A stretch of DNA of 33,326 nt from a virus, in the IMG/VR virus record IMGVR_UViG_3300023284_002488, positions 1-33,326 of that record; one strand, 5' to 3'. Position numbers and translations under genes: made by a program. Shown in pieces: positions 1 through 9,551 of the stretch. Position 1 is the first letter of the stretch, and every line of letters starts with the position of its first letter. The notes beneath the pieces are model-generated. The model saw only the letters and a program-made list of their open reading frames with translations, did no database searches and was not told where the DNA came from.

Positions 1-372
1 GTCCAAATATCTCTTCGACCCCGGATAAACCTCGATCCCTAAGCTCTCCATACGCACATCTTCAAAAACATTTTTGAGATAGTTAAACAACGGCTGGTCA
101 GCGTATTCCTTCGCCTTCGAACTTTGCCCGTAAACATCAAAATCCGTGTACCGTACGTGGAACGTTTCATGATCCAAGTAACCCCAGAACACCTTAGCCT
201 GACTAGGCGTCAGTACCGTTCCAGCCGGGAGCGTCGGTATATTTACCAACGTTCCATCCGTGTAAGCCACCCTTCCTCCAAATTTAAGGCTGACTCCCGT
301 ATTACGTCCCATCTTACGGGAATAATCGGCAGCCACACTTTGAAAGGTCTCAACTTTATATCCGGTCTTCAT
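1..372 (-). CDS. CobT-like protein with HExxH motif (3' end cut by window edge)
   Basis: An open frame of 124 codons starts at ATG 372 and runs off the left edge with no stop, so only the N-terminus is visible. Residues 68-72 read HETFH, an HExxH zinc-peptidase signature, followed at residues 104-110 by an E-D-x-R-x-E stretch. That spacing suits a third glutamate ligand of a gluzincin-like site. This pattern recalls the phage CobT-like or vWA proteins that partner a CobS/MoxR-like AAA+ ATPase, and the gene just upstream is exactly such an ATPase. A vWA domain would lie beyond the edge and cannot be checked. The gene has its own consensus promoter (399-427). The family call rests on motif memory and context; peptidase activity is inference. 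Confidence 0.66.
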   Translation of the reverse strand, partial: MKTGYKVETFQSVAADYSRKMGRNTGVSLKFGGRVAYTDGTLVNIPTLPAGTVLTPSQAKVFWGYLDHETFHVRYTDFDVYGQSSKAKEYADQPLFNYLKNVFEDVRMESLGIEVYPGSKRYLD

Positions 373-398: not shown

Positions 399-427
399 AT
401 TATAACACGTACTCGTGCCAATGTCAA
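399..427 (-). promoter_or_regulatory. Consensus sigma70 promoter before the CobT-like gene
   Basis: On the minus strand TTGACA (422-427) and TATAAT (399-404) are separated by exactly 17 nt, a perfect match to the bacterial housekeeping promoter. The -35 box overlaps the stop codon of the CobS-like gene. The -10 is followed by GACGATA, a downstream element shared with the two other promoters in this window. The ATG at 372 lies 26 nt past the -10. Confidence 0.85.
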
Positions 428-1578
428 GTGACATCCAGACCCACCCGGTCCAGTATTTGACGCACCACTTCCTGATCATCATCATCAAACCAGTTCAACA
501 GTGTAAATTCAATAGCCTCCTTTGTGTTAATGATCAGCTTAAGCTCAAAAAAGTCAATGATCTTCCGCGTTGAAAACGAAATCGAAAGCTGTCCATCCAA
601 GAAAACCTGTCGAACCTCGTTTGCCACCTTTACCAGGAGAGAAATTTCCTTTCTATCCGCGTCGGGAAACCTAGCTCGGAGCATTTTTTCTTCTACATCC
701 GGCGGAAGATAGCCCACCGAGATCTTAACCGAAAATCGGTCGAGAAACGCGCTGTTAAGCACCTCAGTCCCCGTATAAATTCCAAAACCATCACCCTTTC
801 CGCCAGTATTCGCAGTTGCAATCACTTTGAATCCCTTCGCCGCCTTAATAGTTTCTCCCGTCTCCGAAATATACAGGGTCTTCCCACCCTCCAGCACCGA
901 CGACAGTACCGCCGCTATATGCGGCGGCATATAATCAATTTCATCCGCCAAGAGAGGATAACCTCCCCGCATCGCATTTGGAAGTGCCCCGTAGGAAAAG
1001 TACGTTCCCTTCACCGGGTCCGCTTGCGGATAACCCAAAAAGTTTCGCACCGTCACGTCACCGTTCATATTTATCCTATGAATCGGCGCGTTCAATCGGT
1101 TATAAACCTGCAACACTCCTTCAGTCTTACCACAACCGGTCGGTCCGGAAACGTAAACATTCTTTTCCGTCACCGCCGCCGCCACCAGAGCAGTCTTCAG
1201 ACCGCGATCAAAATGAAAGTGTTGAATTTCCTCCGGCAAGAAACTTTCCGTCTCTGGGATTACCGAAGTCACGTATTTCTTCGTAATATCGAACGCCTTA
1301 TCCGGCTCCGACGGCGAATCAAACACGAACGACGGCAACAACGGCTCAAGGTCCGCCGACGGCAAGTTCTTTCGGTCAATCTTCTTGAGCAACTCGAGAA
1401 TTATCGGACTAGCAAGCCGAGCTTGTGGATATTCTTTAAGATACTTTTTGCCACTCATCTTATGCTTTTCAGCTAGATGCGACACCAAACTATGTCCCGT
1501 GTACGGACACAGTAAGCATTGTACCTTATAGGTGTCAACCCGAGTTCTGAATTCCGCTACGTCAATCCTGTCTGCCAC
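424..1578 (-). CDS. CobS-like (MoxR-type) AAA+ ATPase with N-terminal zinc finger
   Basis: The 384-residue protein has a Walker A GPTGCGKT at about 145-152, Walker B LLADEID at about 209-215, a sensor-1 ATAN at about 254-257 and an AFLDRF arginine-finger region. This is the layout of AAA+ ATPases of the MoxR/CobS group. The N-terminus carries a C-x2-C...H-x4-H finger (about residues 21-39) followed by a K-Y-L-K-E-Y-P stretch, resembling MucR-type fingers. In cobalt chelatase CobS works with CobT; in phages the pair occurs outside cobalamin synthesis and its role is not established, perhaps remodelling of a protein or complex. The start is GTG at 1578, preceded by GGGAG six nucleotides away. 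The gene has its own perfect promoter at 1617-1645 and is followed by the CobT-like gene. Confidence 0.85.
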   Translation of the reverse strand: MADRIDVAEFRTRVDTYKVQCLLCPYTGHSLVSHLAEKHKMSGKKYLKEYPQARLASPIILELLKKIDRKNLPSADLEPLLPSFVFDSPSEPDKAFDITKKYVTSVIPETESFLPEEIQHFHFDRGLKTALVAAAVTEKNVYVSGPTGCGKTEGVLQVYNRLNAPIHRINMNGDVTVRNFLGYPQADPVKGTYFSYGALPNAMRGGYPLLADEIDYMPPHIAAVLSSVLEGGKTLYISETGETIKAAKGFKVIATANTGGKGDGFGIYTGTEVLNSAFLDRFSVKISVGYLPPDVEEKMLRARFPDADRKEISLLVKVANEVRQVFLDGQLSISFSTRKIIDFFELKLIINTKEAIEFTLLNWFDDDDQEVVRQILDRVGLDVT

Positions 1579-1616
1579 GTAAATCTCCCATCATATTTTG
1601 CATCAAGTGTATCGTT

Positions 1617-1645
1617 ATTATATATGATATTGGTGGGAATGTCAA
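1617..1645 (-). promoter_or_regulatory. Consensus sigma70 promoter before the CobS-like gene
   Basis: TTGACA (1640-1645, minus strand) and TATAAT (1617-1622) are spaced by exactly 17 nt. The -10 is followed immediately by AACGATA. The -35 overlaps the last codons of the endonuclease IV gene, the same placement as in the other two promoters. The GTG start at 1578 lies about 38 nt downstream of the -10. Confidence 0.85.
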
Positions 1646-2445
1646 ACTTTTTCTACTACGCTCCTTACATAGGCTGCATCCTGCTCTTGTATTGCCAACG
1701 ACCTCCGCTCCAGGATACAAGGCCACGTTACCATGTCCAGTATCATAGGTCGATGGTCCCAGTCTCGATCCTCAAATGGTGTATTATGCCGATCCTTATT
1801 ATTCCCTAATACCACCTCCGGGTCGGGAGAGTTAAGGTGCACTAGACGCACGTACTCACCGTAGTTAATTACAATTCCCGTTCGTATTTTGTTATTCCAG
1901 AGATCCACTCCTCTCGCGTACAAGTGCGTTGTATCCAGACACATTCCCATATTATTCATATCAAGAGCATCAAGACAAAGAGCTATAAATTCTACACTGC
2001 CCACCGCCGACCCGTTCTTCGACCCCGCATCCACTTCCAACAGTACCTTCAGGTCCTCATCCTCCACCACTTTACGGAAAAACTCCAACAGGTTAGTTGC
2101 CGCTTCATTCTCCGTCAGTTGTTTCTTGAATCCCGGGTGTATCACCATCCCTTTTGCTCCCACCGCCAGCGCTAGCTTAGCATAATCTCTAAATGATTTT
2201 CGGTAGAACGATTTGCGACGGGGTTCCCCCTCGCACGGGTTAATCACATACGGCAAATGTACCCAAATATCAATTCCGTACATCATACTCGTGAATTCTC
2301 GGATATCTTTTTCTTCGATTGAATAAGGTTTATAATCCGTCCCTCCACCAAGCATTATTTGCACCACGTCATAGTTCATGGCCCTCGCGTTAACCACCAC
2401 GTATCGGAGACCCTCCTTAACGCTAAGGTGCCCACCCAGTTTCAA
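1642..2445 (-). CDS. nfo: Endonuclease IV-like AP endonuclease
   Basis: This 267-residue protein matches the TIM-barrel endonuclease IV family, which cuts DNA 5' of abasic sites using three zinc ions. The metal-ligand blocks appear in order: HLPY, VIHPG, LLEVDAG (usual form LENTAG), CLDTTHLYARG, HLNSPDP, DRHNTPF and a terminal LER. The length is close to the usual 280 residues. The start is TTG at 2445, overlapping the polymerase TGA as TTGA, with a strong GGGAGGT nine nucleotides upstream; this fixes a non-ATG start. It is translationally coupled behind the DNA polymerase, so a job in repair during phage replication or in attack on modified or damaged DNA is likely. The alternative is a sugar isomerase-like TIM barrel, but the full ligand set favours Nfo. 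Confidence 0.87.
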   Translation of the reverse strand: MKLGGHLSVKEGLRYVVVNARAMNYDVVQIMLGGGTDYKPYSIEEKDIREFTSMMYGIDIWVHLPYVINPCEGEPRRKSFYRKSFRDYAKLALAVGAKGMVIHPGFKKQLTENEAATNLLEFFRKVVEDEDLKVLLEVDAGSKNGSAVGSVEFIALCLDALDMNNMGMCLDTTHLYARGVDLWNNKIRTGIVINYGEYVRLVHLNSPDPEVVLGNNKDRHNTPFEDRDWDHRPMILDMVTWPCILERRSLAIQEQDAAYVRSVVEKV

Positions 2446-4640
2446 TGGAACTTTACCTCCCTAGTCACATCTTCCAAATCTACTTCTTTCTGTTGGCCCC
2501 ACACCTTCCCCATCTTACATCCCACCGTGAGCTGCACTTCCCAACTCTTGATTTCAAATTCCATGGCACTCTTAATCAGAAGAATCCCCGTCCACACAAC
2601 ATCATCCCTAATCAGGAAAGTCAACTCATCGTGCAATTGCATAACCATCTTAATTTTCTTCTCCAGCCCAGCCTTTTTTAACTTCTTCACCACCCTCACC
2701 ATCGCTATCCTAGTAATCTCCGCTCCGGTCCCCTGTATCGCTGTGTTAACCGCACTACGATCCGCAAAAGCCTGCATCCGCCGATCCCCTTCATAAAATT
2801 GCTTAAGCCACCGCTTTCTCCCAAAATAGGTCGTCGTGTACCCTTCCCTCCGCGAAAAGATATGCACCTTGTTCATCCAGCTAAACAAGGTCGGGTGCTT
2901 CCGCACAAACCCGTCAAACATCATTTCTCCCACCCGAATCGCTATATTCGCCTTCTGGGCTATGGTATAGCCGGTAGCCCCGTAAAACGTAGCAAAATTA
3001 ATCACCTTCCCAATACGCCGTTTAGTTTCTCTCTCGGGTTTCGGCAACTCCGCAAACGCCTCATCAGAAATACCAAAAGCGGTCGCCGCCGTCATTGCAT
3101 GCAAATCCACTCCGTTTGCCAACGCCTTAAGCCAACGGGGTTCCTTGCTTAAGTTCGCTCCAATAACCAGTTCCTGACGATCATAATCAAAAGACACCAG
3201 CACCCACCCATCCGGTGCTTGAAAAGACTCTCTCACTGACGGTATAATTGCCACGTCTTTCTGTAACCGCCGCGTTACGTCAATTCCTTCATCCGCACAA
3301 TTCGCCGGACATCCGTTACAGGTCTCTCGAATACACGCCAAACCCTTCTCCGCGGGTAAAACCCAGGGCAGGTCTTCTTTATTTTCATTATGCATCCGCA
3401 CCGAAGCGTCCATTGATTTTGTCAACGCCACTTTCAGTTCCGCTTCTTTACTCTCAAAGAAAGAGTCATCTTCGTCCAGATCGTAGGTTCCTTGCGCTCT
3501 TCCCGGTTCTATTTTAACACTCAAATCAACCCCAACAATATCACGAAATTCTCCGTTAGACACCGCTTGGATATTAACTCCCGTCGCCCCATCCACCTCC
3601 GGAGCCCCACCTGGGGCCGAAAATCTAAACGTCGGGGCCGCAAAGATATTGAAGTTAAACCGTATCGGTATATCCGCCTCAATCAACCTCTTTAGTTTCT
3701 TGAAATAGGTCCCCGAAGCTTTCACCACCTTCTTATAAGACACCACGTACTCGCAGACTGGGAACTGATCCGCTAACTTCGACAGCACCTCCGCGTCAGT
3801 CTTGTGTTGCGGGTTCTTCCCCCGAGTCATCCCCAGGCTGGGCACTCCAAAACTCTCGAACAGCGCATCTCCGAGCTGCTTTGGACTGGTTATATCAAAC
3901 TGGTATCCGATAATTCGGTGTATCTGATTCGCCAGCGCCTCACTCAGCTTTTCAAGTCTCTCAAGCTGGCTCAAAATATATTGCTTATTAAGCTCCATTC
4001 CTCCGTTATGCTCTATCTTCCTGACAATATCGATAAGCTCGTGATCAATCTTTAACGCAAAACTTTGTTCCCGACTAACCCAGTCGTATTTTTCCCTAAT
4101 TCTAAGGGTAAAATCAGCATCAGCACAAGCGTAATCCACGCACCGCTTCGGCGACTTCGTCGAAATATCAAAATTCTTCGCCTTAATTTCCTCTGGTGTA
4201 AACAAATCCTCAAATCGGGTCATGTCTACGCCAAAATCCACCTTCGCAATATCCTTAAGCCCTTTACCCTTCCGATCCGGGTCTGCAAGATACACAAATT
4301 CCAACGTGTCCTCAAACTTCTCCGGTACCCATTTCGAAGCCACTTGCATAATATTTCGGTCATACTTAGCATTATGATAAATCACCGTGTATCCCTGATC
4401 TAACTTCTTCTGAACCAACCGCAATGCAAGCTCTTTCGGCAGATTATTCCCTATCTGGTGCCCAACGGGTACGTAAATCCCCGTTTCCGCTTCTAGACTA
4501 ATTGAAAACCCCACGAGTTTAGCTTTTCTCGTATTAAGACCCGTCGTCTCAGTATCAAAAGCCATCCACTTATCAGGGTGATGGTACGAATCCAAATAAG
4601 CCCGTAGGTCCGTAAACGACTGCGCTAGTTCATATCCCAT
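2442..4640 (-). CDS. polA: Family A DNA polymerase with 3'-5' exonuclease
   Basis: The 732-residue protein has a proofreading domain with DxE (D29/E31), NAKYD (N90-D94) and YACAD (Y170-D174). Its polymerase domain has motif A around D485 and E490 (SFDYDRQE), motif B RRIGKVINFATFYG (541-554) and motif C HDE (670-672). The residue matching E. coli Phe762 is Phe549, as in the wild-type enzyme. No 5'-3' exonuclease domain is present, as usual for phage Pol I. About 100 extra residues (about 361-463) sit between the NIQ motif and the strand before motif A and contain C436, C441, C444 and C448. This is the replicative polymerase, in an operon with the nuclease-like gene upstream (11 nt overlap) and endonuclease IV downstream, under the promoter at 5463-5491. 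Confidence 0.96.
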   Translation of the reverse strand: MGYELAQSFTDLRAYLDSYHHPDKWMAFDTETTGLNTRKAKLVGFSISLEAETGIYVPVGHQIGNNLPKELALRLVQKKLDQGYTVIYHNAKYDRNIMQVASKWVPEKFEDTLEFVYLADPDRKGKGLKDIAKVDFGVDMTRFEDLFTPEEIKAKNFDISTKSPKRCVDYACADADFTLRIREKYDWVSREQSFALKIDHELIDIVRKIEHNGGMELNKQYILSQLERLEKLSEALANQIHRIIGYQFDITSPKQLGDALFESFGVPSLGMTRGKNPQHKTDAEVLSKLADQFPVCEYVVSYKKVVKASGTYFKKLKRLIEADIPIRFNFNIFAAPTFRFSAPGGAPEVDGATGVNIQAVSNGEFRDIVGVDLSVKIEPGRAQGTYDLDEDDSFFESKEAELKVALTKSMDASVRMHNENKEDLPWVLPAEKGLACIRETCNGCPANCADEGIDVTRRLQKDVAIIPSVRESFQAPDGWVLVSFDYDRQELVIGANLSKEPRWLKALANGVDLHAMTAATAFGISDEAFAELPKPERETKRRIGKVINFATFYGATGYTIAQKANIAIRVGEMMFDGFVRKHPTLFSWMNKVHIFSRREGYTTTYFGRKRWLKQFYEGDRRMQAFADRSAVNTAIQGTGAEITRIAMVRVVKKLKKAGLEKKIKMVMQLHDELTFLIRDDVVWTGILLIKSAMEFEIKSWEVQLTVGCKMGKVWGQQKEVDLEDVTREVKFH

Positions 4641-5442
4641 GATTATCTATATCTCCGAAATTAGTCGTGGCTAATTGAGTCATGGTAAAAGTCGTCTTAC
4701 CTTCCGGGACATCCTGCGTCTTAATATAGTCCACATTCAACAGTCTTTTACCCCCTCCGCAATAAAACAATAGGGCAAACCAGTCCGCCTTATCACGCCC
4801 TTTCGTCCCAAACTTCCAGTAGTAAGGATCCCCCGACCTTGAATTTGACTTGTATCGATACCGTTTACTGGCCTTCACATTTACTCGCCCGAACTCCCCA
4901 TCCTCAACATCATAATCCGCGGTGGGCAACATCAGATTTTTGTCTTCCACAATATGCGTTCCCCGAAGTCGGATGTAATCCAGTTCCGCCCGACGACCAA
5001 ATCCCGTTGAAAAGTTCGTCGTAGACCAGTCCACGCATTCACTAAGATCGATATTCGCTTCCTCCGCCGCTTTTCTCACGTCAACCTCAGACACGCAAGC
5101 TAACCGTGCAAAAAGTCGCACTGATTTTAGACGTTTCAATTCCTTACGAAGGGTTATAGGGTCCACCCTACTTTTCATGGTTCGCCCCAGGTAAGTCCGG
5201 TAACTTGACGCGCTAATACCAAGGTACTTCGCCGCCTTTTGTATTGACCCGTGGTCCGCCAATAGCTCAAGCAGATCCTCTCTCGCTAGATTCCTCGCGT
5301 AAGTCGGTGGTCCCTTCAGTTCAAGCTCTTTCCAGAGTCGGTCAGCCTCTTTTCTTTCAAGACCAAGGTATATCATCCAGTTAGTCTTTGAACCAACCAT
5401 CAATATAAGCTCTTGGTGTTCTTCCAGTCTTAAGTTTAGCAT
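4630..5442 (-). CDS. Putative PD-(D/E)XK nuclease with N-terminal helix-turn-helix
   Basis: The family is not recognised with certainty. The N-terminal half of this 270-residue protein holds helical stretches typical of DNA-binding HTH (about residues 54-87, with SIQKAAKYLGIS, and about 107-130). The C-terminal half has the arrangement of a PD-(D/E)XK nuclease: GRRAELD (E153), then ADYD (about D177), then GRVNVKAS with K190, followed by a KADWFALL helix near 218-225. A role as site- or structure-specific nuclease acting with the polymerase is inferred from that arrangement and from being first in the polymerase operon. A homing-type or resolvase-like enzyme is possible. The ATG at 5442 is well supported by GGAGGAGG six nucleotides upstream and by a perfect promoter 20 nt before it. 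Confidence 0.65.
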   Translation of the reverse strand: MLNLRLEEHQELILMVGSKTNWMIYLGLERKEADRLWKELELKGPPTYARNLAREDLLELLADHGSIQKAAKYLGISASSYRTYLGRTMKSRVDPITLRKELKRLKSVRLFARLACVSEVDVRKAAEEANIDLSECVDWSTTNFSTGFGRRAELDYIRLRGTHIVEDKNLMLPTADYDVEDGEFGRVNVKASKRYRYKSNSRSGDPYYWKFGTKGRDKADWFALLFYCGGGKRLLNVDYIKTQDVPEGKTTFTMTQLATTNFGDIDNHGI

Positions 5443-5462
5443 AATTCCTCCTCCATATCGTT

Positions 5463-5491
5463 ATTATATCATATCACATTCACATTGTCAA
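5463..5491 (-). promoter_or_regulatory. Consensus sigma70 promoter for the nuclease/polymerase/Nfo operon
   Basis: TTGACA (5486-5491, minus strand) and TATAAT (5463-5468) have an exact 17 nt spacer, which overlaps the 3' end of the CHC2 primase gene. AACGATA follows the -10, as in the two other promoters. The leader is very short: the ATG at 5442 is only 20 nt past the -10, with the ribosome site GGAGGAGG in between. Confidence 0.85.
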
Positions 5492-5939
5492 CACGTTTCC
5501 TCCATACCTGCATTCTTTTGTTTAATTCGTTCTCCTCAATTATTCCTCGTTCGTAAAGAAGACAAATTTTATCCAGCATTTCCCCAAGTTTAGCGTGCTC
5601 TTTAACCTCCATCCAATGTAACCCCTTAAGAGTATCTTCCCCACCCTTTCGAGCCCGCAACAAGGGTAAACGGTCTATCTTCCTCCGTGACCCGGCCCCC
5701 TCTCCCCATTTCTTCTCCACCTCTCGATGAGCATCCGCTCTCTTCATTTCATGATACTTCGCGTAGAACCCGACCATATCCAGGGTCAGTTCACAGGCAA
5801 AACAGTGGAAAAGTTGGGTGTCAATATAAAATCCCGAGCTAGGGTCAGTATCATGATGAAACGGACAGTGAATCATGAGCCTTCCCGTCCGCTCCTGGAA
5901 ATTAATTCCCATATCCGTCAGTAATACCTCCGGTGTCAT
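5469..5939 (-). CDS. CHC2 zinc-finger primase-like protein (no catalytic domain)
   Basis: The 156-residue protein begins with the CHC2 zinc-binding domain of DnaG-type primases: C25-x2-H28, then C46-F-A-C49, with the flanking signature HCPFHHDTDPS and FHCFAC. DnaG is about 580 residues and has a TOPRIM polymerase domain; here nothing after residue 65 resembles TOPRIM, and the C-terminal part is basic and helical. It may bind template DNA and help a host or separate phage primase, or aid helicase recruitment. Its position directly downstream of the DnaB-like helicase fits replication initiation. The ATG at 5939 has GAGGTG about nine nucleotides upstream. The gene end contains the next operon's promoter. 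Confidence 0.82.
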   Translation of the reverse strand: MTPEVLLTDMGINFQERTGRLMIHCPFHHDTDPSSGFYIDTQLFHCFACELTLDMVGFYAKYHEMKRADAHREVEKKWGEGAGSRRKIDRLPLLRARKGGEDTLKGLHWMEVKEHAKLGEMLDKICLLYERGIIEENELNKRMQVWRKRVDNVNVI

Positions 5940-5945
5940 TATCTT

Positions 5946-6008
5946 TTACACCTCACCATCTTCTTTAGTCAAAATTTCAGGCTCTTCTTCACGTGTATTT
6001 TCATCCAT
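5946..6008 (-). CDS. Possible acidic 20-residue microprotein
   Basis: An ATG at 6008 overlaps the helicase stop codon as TGATG, the same coupled arrangement used elsewhere in this genome. It opens a 20-codon frame rich in Glu and Asp that ends at 5946, seven nucleotides before the primase start. The ribosome site of the primase lies inside its last codons, so it could serve to couple translation of helicase and primase. There is no similarity to go on. It could equally be a plain 68 nt spacer. Confidence 0.3.
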   Translation of the reverse strand: MDENTREEEPEILTKEDGEV

Positions 6009-7456
6009 CACAACACTATCTCATCTTCAGCCTCAACCGCCCCCGTCGGGGCATATCCGCTAACGGGCGCAAGCCCCGCCGTCAAATCAAACATTCTTCG
6101 AGAATCCGGCTCGATAAACACCGCCACCGGATCCGGGTCAACTTTACCCCATCTTGATTTCAACACCCCTATTTTCGGCTCCGAGGTTGCTTGCTCTTCC
6201 ACTCCAAAGAACACATAAGTCACCACGTCCGCTTCTTTCTCCGCCGCATTATACTGTCCCAAAGCCGTGAGATCCATTCTTCCCCCTTCCGTAGCCGCTC
6301 TTTTGAATCCTTCCCGGTTAATCTGAAACGGGGTTGCCACCGCCAACCCGCCACCTCCATCAAACGCCATCGCAAATCGCTTCGCGTCCGCAATCGTCTC
6401 GTTTCGGGCCAACGTTGTATTCTCGCTCCGATATTTAGAGTCTAACGGTAGTCGGGTCAGGTAATCCATCCACATCATATCTACTTCTTCTTCCGCGTGC
6501 TCCCGCACCGTCCGTTGCATTATCGACCCAAACGTTGTAAATTCTCCGCTATCCACCACTCTTATTGACCCGTAGTTTTTATTATTCGCCAAGTCATCAT
6601 TTACCAACTTGAAAAACATCTCCTGCGTTGGTTCAAGATTCCCCAAAAGTAGGCTAAACGTCGAAATCGGCTTCCCCTGGTTAGAGAACACCGGGTTTGC
6701 CGAGTGCATCGCCACTAACATTAATTTTATATCATCCGCCGGCATTTCTGACGAAAACAACAACGTGTTCCATCCCCCGTCCACCGACGCGTTCAAAATC
6801 ATATTCATCATCATAGTCGATTTTAAGTGTCCCCCGAATCCAGCATGAATATAAAGTTGCTTCTTCCTAATTCCTGCGGTCGCCGAGTCGTAGAGTCCGT
6901 ACCCCGTCGGCACCCCGTAAGTCTCCTGCGGGTTCTTTCGTCTTTTCTCGTATAACTCTACCAGCTCCTTTTGACTATCCTGTATTCGTGCTGGCATCCT
7001 CCCTTCCTGGTCAGCCGGTTTCCCTTCCGACTCCGCAAAAATAAATGCCAACGCCGCGTCCGTTCCCTTTATTTTAATTTTGTTGAGAGTTTCACCCGCG
7101 TTCGCTATTTTAATTCCTTGTTTCAGTGTTCGGGTCAAGCGTTCCGCCGCCTGCTGTTCCACCTCCGCTTCCAAAAGATCCTGGAACGATGCCCCCTCTA
7201 AAAATTGCTCCGTCAGGACCTCTTCCAGTACCATTACCTCTTCAACCTGGTTATCCTTTTCCAGTTGATTATAAACGCTCTGAAGTTGTGGAGCTTCCGC
7301 GTACTTCTGATAAAACTCCAGCAAGTAATCCAGCACCGCCTCATCTGCCTTCAACAGACTTACAAATCTACTACGCTCCACCCTCTTGTAGTTATCAGTT
7401 GCATTATCCTTCTCAGTGTCCGCTTCGTACACCAATCCGCGCAACACCGACTTCAT
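6008..7456 (-). CDS. DnaB-like replicative DNA helicase
   Basis: This 482-residue protein has a helical N-terminal domain and a RecA-like core of superfamily 4 starting near residue 180 (GVPTGYGLYD). The P-loop region reads GFGGHLKST (206-214), followed by the LLFSSEM block (232-238) typical of DnaB motif H1a. Later come VDMMWMDYL (Walker B) and a long C-terminal segment with KSRWGK, as expected for the last helicase motifs. The usual glycine before the P-loop lysine is leucine (L211). It should unwind DNA at the phage fork. The ATG at 7456 overlaps the stop of the loader-like gene as ATGA, and the CHC2 primase gene follows. Confidence 0.88.
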   Translation of the reverse strand: MKSVLRGLVYEADTEKDNATDNYKRVERSRFVSLLKADEAVLDYLLEFYQKYAEAPQLQSVYNQLEKDNQVEEVMVLEEVLTEQFLEGASFQDLLEAEVEQQAAERLTRTLKQGIKIANAGETLNKIKIKGTDAALAFIFAESEGKPADQEGRMPARIQDSQKELVELYEKRRKNPQETYGVPTGYGLYDSATAGIRKKQLYIHAGFGGHLKSTMMMNMILNASVDGGWNTLLFSSEMPADDIKLMLVAMHSANPVFSNQGKPISTFSLLLGNLEPTQEMFFKLVNDDLANNKNYGSIRVVDSGEFTTFGSIMQRTVREHAEEEVDMMWMDYLTRLPLDSKYRSENTTLARNETIADAKRFAMAFDGGGGLAVATPFQINREGFKRAATEGGRMDLTALGQYNAAEKEADVVTYVFFGVEEQATSEPKIGVLKSRWGKVDPDPVAVFIEPDSRRMFDLTAGLAPVSGYAPTGAVEAEDEIVL

Positions 7457-8010
7457 TTTCGAACCTCCACCCTCGAAAAATTAGTTTTCAGTTCATCCGC
7501 AAGTTCAGGACTATATTTCTTCCACACGATATCAAAAGCTATCCCAAGTAGTACCCAGGTTGGTTTCAGAAGCAGTGCTCTTCTCCTCAACACTTGCAAT
7601 ATTAGTTCCGGTAGGTACTTATTTGGTGGATCCGCGAATCCCAGCAACAATACCAGAATATCTGGGTTTACCGCCTGGTTAACACTATCAAACGAGTCAT
7701 CCTTCTCCAGGAAAATCTCCACCAATCGGTAAGCATCCATCGTCATGTGACTCTTTCCGCTTTCCGCCATGTCCAGTAGAACCCTCGCTATATGCGGACG
7801 CACCGTCAACAAGGGCCCCTCTATCAGGAGATCGTCACGAATTTTATCAGTCAGTTGGGTAGTCTCTCTCGGCTTCGGGCAATACATCGGCCCGAGCCGG
7901 CTCCGGTTAAGGCTCATCACCAAACAAGGACACCGTACCCACCGCCCGTTCTCCTGGTAGTGCCCATGTCGTCCGCACCTAGCATAATTAGGACAGTCTT
8001 CGTTTATCAC
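7453..8010 (-). CDS. Degenerate helicase-loader-like protein with zinc finger
   Basis: Starting at GTG 8010 (overlapping the upstream stop as GTGA) gives 185 residues; a TTG start at 8043 is possible but less likely. The N-terminus has four cysteines (C6, C12, C27, C29) in a probable zinc finger. The rest follows the outline of DnaC/IstB-type AAA+ helicase loaders: LLIEGP at the usual P-loop strand, then a strand-turn DILVLLLGFADPPN, NKYLPELILQVLRRR and KPTWVLLG where Walker B and sensor 1 belong. The P-loop GxxGxGKT is replaced by GPLLTVRPH and the Walker B acids are absent, so ATPase activity is unlikely. Its place between the SNF2 helicase and the DnaB-like gene supports a loader role. The fold assignment is inference. 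Confidence 0.65.
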   Translation of the reverse strand: MINEDCPNYARCGRHGHYQENGRWVRCPCLVMSLNRSRLGPMYCPKPRETTQLTDKIRDDLLIEGPLLTVRPHIARVLLDMAESGKSHMTMDAYRLVEIFLEKDDSFDSVNQAVNPDILVLLLGFADPPNKYLPELILQVLRRRALLLKPTWVLLGIAFDIVWKKYSPELADELKTNFSRVEVRK

Positions 8011-9551
8011 ACCACCTGCCTGCCTCCCACCATCGCGTTCCAAATATCCACCAAATCATTAGTTGACGCTTCTATCGTTTCCACATCACCCGTTACCGCT
8101 GCCCAAAGTTCCTGTTTCTTCATGATCACACCCAGGGTATAACTGTCGATCGACTGAGTCGAACCCGCCAGTTTCGCTACGTCCGGGTGTAATTTCGCTA
8201 ACATTCGATAAGCTATCACCGTCCGATGTATCGAACCAGTCCTCTTTATCCTTCCGCACGTCTGCCGATATAGTCCGTACGACCAAGGCAGGTCATAAAA
8301 GAAAAGATGAGCCGCGTTTTGAAGGTTTAGTGCCTTCTGTAACGCTTTTGTTCCCAATAATACATTAATACCGTTACTGGTATCGCCCATGAATAACTTT
8401 CTAGCCTCGTCCCTTTGGGAAGCAGACTCTTTTCCGGTGATCCGCCGGTTTCTTATCCTACGCGTAGCCAACATTTCTTCAATACAGTCAATTGTCCCCC
8501 GCAACTTCGAGTACACTATCACTCTTTGTCCCGCAAGACTGTTCTCCAACATCTCCATCAACGCCAGCATCTTCATCGAATCTATGTCAAACCCTAGCAA
8601 TCTCGGGTTATTCACCATTTGTTGAGTCAGGATCATCGACGGCAGGAGGTCTGGTGCTCTCACAGTCCCATCCGGCATCTGTATCAACCGGTCCATAGAT
8701 TCCAGTACCTTCAACGAGTGTGCTTTCGTCATGGTAATCGGCAGGTCCTTCGTAATCAGGTCCGGCAGGTCCTGTTCCACCTCCGAATCATCCTGCAACC
8801 TTCCGTAGAACACATGCTGAATGGTGTCTCGAAAATGACCAAGGTTCTTATGTCCCTTCACTATTCTTATATTTCTCTTCACCTTCCTCATTATACAATA
8901 ATTCTTCTCGAACTGTTTCCGTGACGGGAAAGTCCCCGGCGTCACAATTCGCATGATTCCGAAAGCTTCATCCAGCCGATTTTCTATAATTGTCGCCGTC
9001 AACCCGTAAGCCCTTGCGCAAGTTCCCCGGTATTGATTCACCATCTCAAACATCGTGGTGTGCAAAACGGTCGTCGGGTTCTTAAAGTAGTTCGGCTCGT
9101 CCGCCATCAGCACCCATCGTGATCCCATCCCCTCTCCAATATGTTTCGCATAATCGTATATCATACTATAGGTGGTCACGATCACATCAGCTCCGTGCTG
9201 ACGGAATACTCTCGCCCTCGCTGACGGATCTTTATGTGTCTCAGAGTTAACAAGTTTCACCTTAATTCCCTTGGTCAACCAGTCAAACTCATCCACCCAC
9301 TGCTGTAGGGCCGACTTCTCTGTCAGCACCAAAACTTTAGTTTCGGGTTTTGCCGCCTTAATATAGGTGTAAGCGTAGATTGACTCAAGGGTCTTCCCCA
9401 AACCCACGTCATCCCCGAGAATCATCCTCGGCCTCAGCAGCATCATCAGAATGCCACGTTTTTGATAGAGGTATGGTATATCCGGGTCTACAAGATAGGG
9501 GTTGGGTCGGAGCTTTATCTTCTTCGCTTTCCTGACCGAGTCTTCATCCAT
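8007..9551 (-). CDS. SNF2-family DNA helicase/translocase
   Basis: The 514-residue protein has motif I DDVGLGKT (about 47-54), motif Ia LVLTEKSALQQW, motif II ADEPNYFKN (DExx box as DEP), motif III GLTATIIEN, and a second RecA-like half with VIVYSKLR, INVLLGTKALQKALNLQ and CGRIKRTGS (motif VI). This order is that of SNF2-like helicase proteins, which translocate on double-stranded DNA and remodel protein-DNA complexes. Such genes are common in phage replication modules, where they may assist replication, recombination or defence evasion. The start ATG at 9551 follows a 46 nt gap with only a weak AGGAT ribosome site. No nuclease or HNH domain is attached. Confidence 0.92.
   Translation of the reverse strand: MDEDSVRKAKKIKLRPNPYLVDPDIPYLYQKRGILMMLLRPRMILGDDVGLGKTLESIYAYTYIKAAKPETKVLVLTEKSALQQWVDEFDWLTKGIKVKLVNSETHKDPSARARVFRQHGADVIVTTYSMIYDYAKHIGEGMGSRWVLMADEPNYFKNPTTVLHTTMFEMVNQYRGTCARAYGLTATIIENRLDEAFGIMRIVTPGTFPSRKQFEKNYCIMRKVKRNIRIVKGHKNLGHFRDTIQHVFYGRLQDDSEVEQDLPDLITKDLPITMTKAHSLKVLESMDRLIQMPDGTVRAPDLLPSMILTQQMVNNPRLLGFDIDSMKMLALMEMLENSLAGQRVIVYSKLRGTIDCIEEMLATRRIRNRRITGKESASQRDEARKLFMGDTSNGINVLLGTKALQKALNLQNAAHLFFYDLPWSYGLYRQTCGRIKRTGSIHRTVIAYRMLAKLHPDVAKLAGSTQSIDSYTLGVIMKKQELWAAVTGDVETIEASTNDLVDIWNAMVGGRQVV

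Follow-up and report, generated by a model that had tools for sequence, protein, structure and literature searches.

Why do three promoters in one stretch of phage DNA, each an exact match to the sigma-70 consensus, continue into the same six bases, ACGATA, just where transcription would be expected to start? The stretch analysed, here called the window, takes in the whole of IMG/VR record IMGVR_UViG_3300023284_002488 (G000), 33,326 b in length and with ends classed as linear. Its G+C content is 51% and its gene set lies on the minus strand. Tape measure and minor tail proteins, an endolysin and the products of replication genes are among the window proteins that were tested. The window is probably a fragment of the genome of an uncultured phage, since no terminase or capsid match was obtained among the tested proteins and many relatives sharing its helicase sit on far longer contigs, up to 619 kb. 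No tRNAs were found in the window, and its comparison with Rfam gave no match to an RNA element. A module of SNF2 helicase and DnaB (window 5469-9551; L311-L413), often with polymerase A nearby, is present on many IMG/VR contigs of up to 619 kb.

The three promoters of the original prediction are confirmed: they are the only matches to TTGACA-N15-19-TATAAT in the window, all on the minus strand and all with a spacer of 17 nt; shuffled sequences would be expected to contain 0.02. Natural promoters that are exact at both sigma-70 hexamers are rare. P1 (399..427) has TTGACA at 427-422 and TATAAT at 404-399, P2 (1617..1645) has them at 1645-1640 and 1622-1617, and P3 (5463..5491) at 5491-5486 and 5468-5463. 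The three are observed at gene junctions of the replication module, around the gaps 373-423, 1579-1641 and 5443-5468, with a start codon a short distance downstream of each. Each also overlaps the end of the preceding gene, as had been claimed: a CobS-like gene at P1, an AP-endonuclease-like gene at P2 and a primase-like gene at P3, the stop codon TGA of the upstream gene falling within the -35 (tTGAca) of the first two promoters and within the spacer of the third. The unit behind P1 is a CobT-like gene that is truncated at the edge of the window (1..372, minus; Pfam PF06213 CobT, 4.9e-07). Behind P2 stands a CobS-like AAA ATPase (424..1578, minus; phrog_249, 1e-57; PF07728, 3.5e-14), and a weak ROS/MUCR zinc-finger match was seen in the short N-terminal region before its AAA domain. 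The product of the first gene behind P3 (4630..5442, minus) gave weak helix-turn-helix matches, which lie in its N-terminal half, and has a 38% identical homologue in L345, a relative described below; its structure model is of low confidence (mean pLDDT 52.6), with the N-terminal half helical. This gene is followed by a DNA polymerase A with a 3'-5' exonuclease domain (2442..4640, minus; PF00476, 8.2e-77; 57% identical in L345) and by an AP-endonuclease-like TIM-barrel protein (1642..2445, minus; PF01261, 2.6e-22; 54% identical in L345).

Directly after the -10, P1 reads GACGATA and both P2 and P3 read AACGATA, the (G/A)ACGATA of the original prediction. On the minus strand the hexamer occupies 392..397 in P1 (G at 398 before it), 1610..1615 in P2 (A at 1616) and 5456..5461 in P3 (A at 5462). 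The preferred transcription start lies 7 bp after the -10 (PMC5730371), here the last A of ACGATA, so the hexamer would span -5 to +1. It would consist mostly of discriminator and end in the start base, its one transcribed position. The claim that it covers the expected start therefore holds for that last base, the other five (-5 to -1) being mostly discriminator. Its suggested role as an initial transcribed sequence affecting promoter escape does not quite fit an element made of discriminator and start base, after which nothing is common to P1-P3. The predicted starts are 392, 1610 and 5456, giving leaders of 20 nt to the ATG at 372, of 32 nt to the GTG at 1578 (preceded by GGGAG) and of 14 nt to the ATG at 5442 (preceded by GGAGGAGG). 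A T-A step is found at the expected start position in all three. The G that favours contact with sigma 1.2 is missing from the discriminator of P1-P3, which leaves any reason for selection of this particular hexamer a guess and counts against the promoter-family reading given below.

ACGATA occurs 15 times in the window, counting both strands, which is about what base composition predicts. The 12 copies beyond the promoters all lie inside genes, on both strands; no intergenic copy away from P1-P3 and no second offset at the promoters was found in the window, nor were spacer copies detected at P1-P3 or inverted copies near them. Weaker promoter-ACGATA copies elsewhere in the window were also considered, and none rose above background in a combined 18-position mismatch scan (-35, -10 and ACGATA): three sites had 0 mismatches and the next best had 4, equal to the shuffle background. 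There is therefore no graded family of weaker copies in the window.

The claim that these promoters have a common start-region element is borne out at the sequence level. When triples of perfect phage promoters were drawn at random from different loci, 84 of 400,000 matched as well as P1-P3 do (6-7 of 7 bases), and ACGATA was at that position in 0 of 272 other perfect promoters, a comparison from which the hits that had selected the loci were removed. Among 233 perfect phage promoters in the fetched loci, position 6 is C or T in 76% and position 7 is A in 44%; the final TA is thus ordinary, and ACGA is the specific part. The sharing of a start region within one phage is not rare. Of 33 other phage loci that have at least three perfect promoters, 5 contain a triple agreeing at 6 or more of the 7 bases after the -10, a fraction that is only a guide, the 33 loci not being a random sample of phages. 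Common start regions were seen among the perfect promoters of L210 (CTTACACACTA), L446, L481, L017 and L285, and each such locus or group has its own, for example ACAGGCATG in L017 and ATATAAATG in both L446 and L481. In other promoter sets, L004, L012, L022, L024, L025, L030, L043, L067 and L075 have a near-identical promoter, TTGACACATAAATAGGTGTGTCGTATAATAACGATATTGTTGTAATTCCTT, followed by an apparent tRNA 3' part, and 77 sigma-70 promoters with perfect hexamers were counted in the 328-kb record G011 (that of L041); in many of them ACCACTT follows the -35 closely, within the spacer.

Across the viral_contigs collection of IMG/VR, TTGACA-N15-19-TATAATNACGATA was found in 92 stretches, many of them near-identical copies; among the 80 matches listed, each shows one match in its stretch. 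The version shifted by one base was found in 40, and the permuted ATAGCA in at least 120, a control that a common CAT start motif may have inflated. A widespread phage promoter element was rejected on these counts, which are roughly in line with phage promoter base preferences; in the collection as a whole, nothing marks out ACGATA behind a perfect -10 as a general element. The further copies that the original prediction asked for do occur in unrelated phages, at no more than the level of base preference. A look-alike promoter in L063 (spacer ATTCCCACAATATCATT, against TTCCCACCAATATCATA in P2) was set aside as a single case, on a 33-kb contig with no detectable gene in common.

No DNA relatives were found in INPHARED, no close ones via polymerase or CobS patterns, and only three distant SNF2 relatives in bacterial genomes. 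SNF2-helicase profiles identified one true syntenic relative, L345 (IMGVR_UViG_3300023284_002254, 29,760 b), in which eight genes follow the order of the window at 36-58% identity. The best promoter-like site in the 17.8 kb of L345 scanned is a near-consensus TTGATA-N17-TATAAT (11/12), observed before the homologue of the first P3 gene. Compared with P3 it is set a little further upstream, within the last coding part of the primase-like gene, and AAGGTGA follows it in place of ACGATA; TATAATNACGATA, allowing 1 mismatch, is absent from the 29.8-kb contig. The contig stops short of the position of P1 and at most a few dozen bases from that of P2, leaving one equivalent promoter to compare, and at that one there is no further copy of the element, the outcome that the original prediction had named in advance as refuting. 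On this one available comparison, a promoter before the polymerase unit appears to recur and the hexamer does not. Fourteen distant relatives (records of 17-513 kb) have no perfect promoter. This suggests that where phages have shared start regions, each has its own, which can change from one relative to another.

The best explanation, given a probability of roughly 60%, is that P1-P3 are strong host sigma-70 promoters and form a single family, specific to this phage, that has its discriminator in common. That sigma-70 reads them is an assumption. The housekeeping RNA polymerase of the host would read the three promoters, which would restart transcription within a compact one-directional replication module and divide it into three units: helix-turn-helix protein, DNA polymerase A and AP endonuclease (P3), CobS-like ATPase (P2), and CobT-like gene (P1). 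R-ACGATA would correspond to -6 to +1, a common discriminator with a T(-1)A(+1) initiator, and common origin would keep it alike, or selection acting on how long the open complex lasts, where transcription starts and how readily RNA polymerase leaves such tight consensus hexamers, or both. Activity, start sites, timing and the role as discriminator are all predicted from the DNA. The promoter-family reading is favoured because perfect N17 hexamers stand at three gene junctions with start codons close behind, because ACGATA keeps one offset, at which it falls on the discriminator and the preferred start position, because no further intergenic ACGATA is present, because the best promoter-like site of L345 is at the junction matching P3, and because five other loci have a common start region of their own. 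It is disfavoured by the distant relatives, which have no perfect promoters, and by the hexamer not being kept in L345.

A different explanation is that ACGATA forms part of an operator: some DNA-binding protein of the phage, such as the helix-turn-helix protein driven by P3, which would then also regulate itself, would cover -10 to +1 and shut off or tune P1-P3 together. All three intergenic copies of ACGATA are indeed at promoters, the sharing among them is beyond chance, the first gene behind P3 has the weak helix-turn-helix matches, and CGATA recurs at several offsets in 40 of 60 perfect promoters of the unrelated G001, G002, G003 and G006. The six bases are asymmetric and short for an operator, however; they occur at a single fixed offset, with no spacer, inverted or promoter-free sites in the window, they are missing at the P3-like promoter of L345, and the window has no detectable gene in common with the CGATA phages. 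An operator is therefore judged unlikely, and the binding site for a repressor or activator proposed earlier finds no support in the window, where the element keeps to one position and lacks other intergenic or inverted copies; its absence at the L345 equivalent is weak evidence, being one comparison. More doubtful by some way is the fuller version, in which P1-P3 would form a small regulon whose phage protein, perhaps that driven by P3, reads the asymmetric (R)ACGATA across the melted -6 to +1 as a site of the same class as the CGATA of G001-G003 and G006. In those four genomes (loci L140-L144 of G001, L133-L135 of G002, L136-L139 of G003 and L150 of G006), CGATA lies between -35 and +2 of the perfect TTGACA-N-TATAAT promoters, mostly as G(A/C)CGATA and mostly in the spacer. 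In each genome a single promoter carries GACGATA immediately behind the -10, with none in its spacer. The pattern there looks like a movable operator and is possibly of more interest than P1-P3. G002 encodes rIIA/rIIB and terminase, and G003 gave a sigma-factor-like match.

The original prediction had also argued that the spacers differ and that recent copying is thereby excluded. The spacer of P3 fits this, agreeing with that of P1 at 6/17 and of P2 at 5/17 positions, not beyond shuffles, but the argument is too strong for P1 and P2, which are identical at 8/17 (shuffle p ~0.009, uncorrected, as one of three comparisons). The three promoters might descend from one copied ancestor, ACGATA being retained sequence with no selected role; besides the P1/P2 spacers, the upstream stop codon is in the same register inside the -35 of both. 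Yet ACGATA is intact in all three despite the unlike spacer of P3, and the sequence just after it has diverged. Copying may explain P1 and P2 but does not readily explain an intact ACGATA in P3, and as an account of the whole set it is quite improbable. That independent promoters agree by accident is hardly credible: only three copies are present, in one fragment, and a final TA is in any case frequent at phage promoters, but the expected number of perfect promoters is a small fraction of one and random triples are as alike in about 2 of 10,000 draws.

Among known systems, P1-P3 match consensus sigma-70 promoters (PMC7057261; PMC5730371) in their hexamers, spacer, predicted 7-bp start and short distance to the gene; unlike these, the window has three exact ones in one fragment with the same discriminator. 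Stronger promoters tend toward poorer escape (PMC7057261), and on T5 N25 escape varies with the start region (PMC12464699), both in keeping with the promoter-family reading. P1-P3 would share with T5 early promoters such as N25 their strength, their use by the host RNA polymerase and a start area whose sequence tunes escape; the N25 work concerns +3 to +26, whereas P1-P3 have nothing in common after +1 and no sequence relation to N25 (PMC12464699). P1-P3 are a natural set well suited to testing how over-tight promoters are tuned by the segment from -10 to +1. Mycobacteriophage L5-type operators and stoperators (PMC9283540) are likewise short, asymmetric, repeated phage elements at promoters, but they are also spread across the genome, with many sites away from promoters, and have a known repressor. 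The window has no promoter-free sites of this kind, its 12 other ACGATA being intragenic and at the level of composition, and the candidate for a cognate repressor is the 4630-5442 protein, with its weak helix-turn-helix matches and low-confidence model, in what is probably a fragment. The intergenic direct repeats of TLS and T1-like phages (PMC11447400) resemble ACGATA as a phage-specific element repeated between genes along the direction of transcription. The TLS repeat is 21 nt long, stands at 21 places and has an uncertain role, whereas the window has three copies locked to consensus promoters, which are a new example of a pattern recurring in phages.
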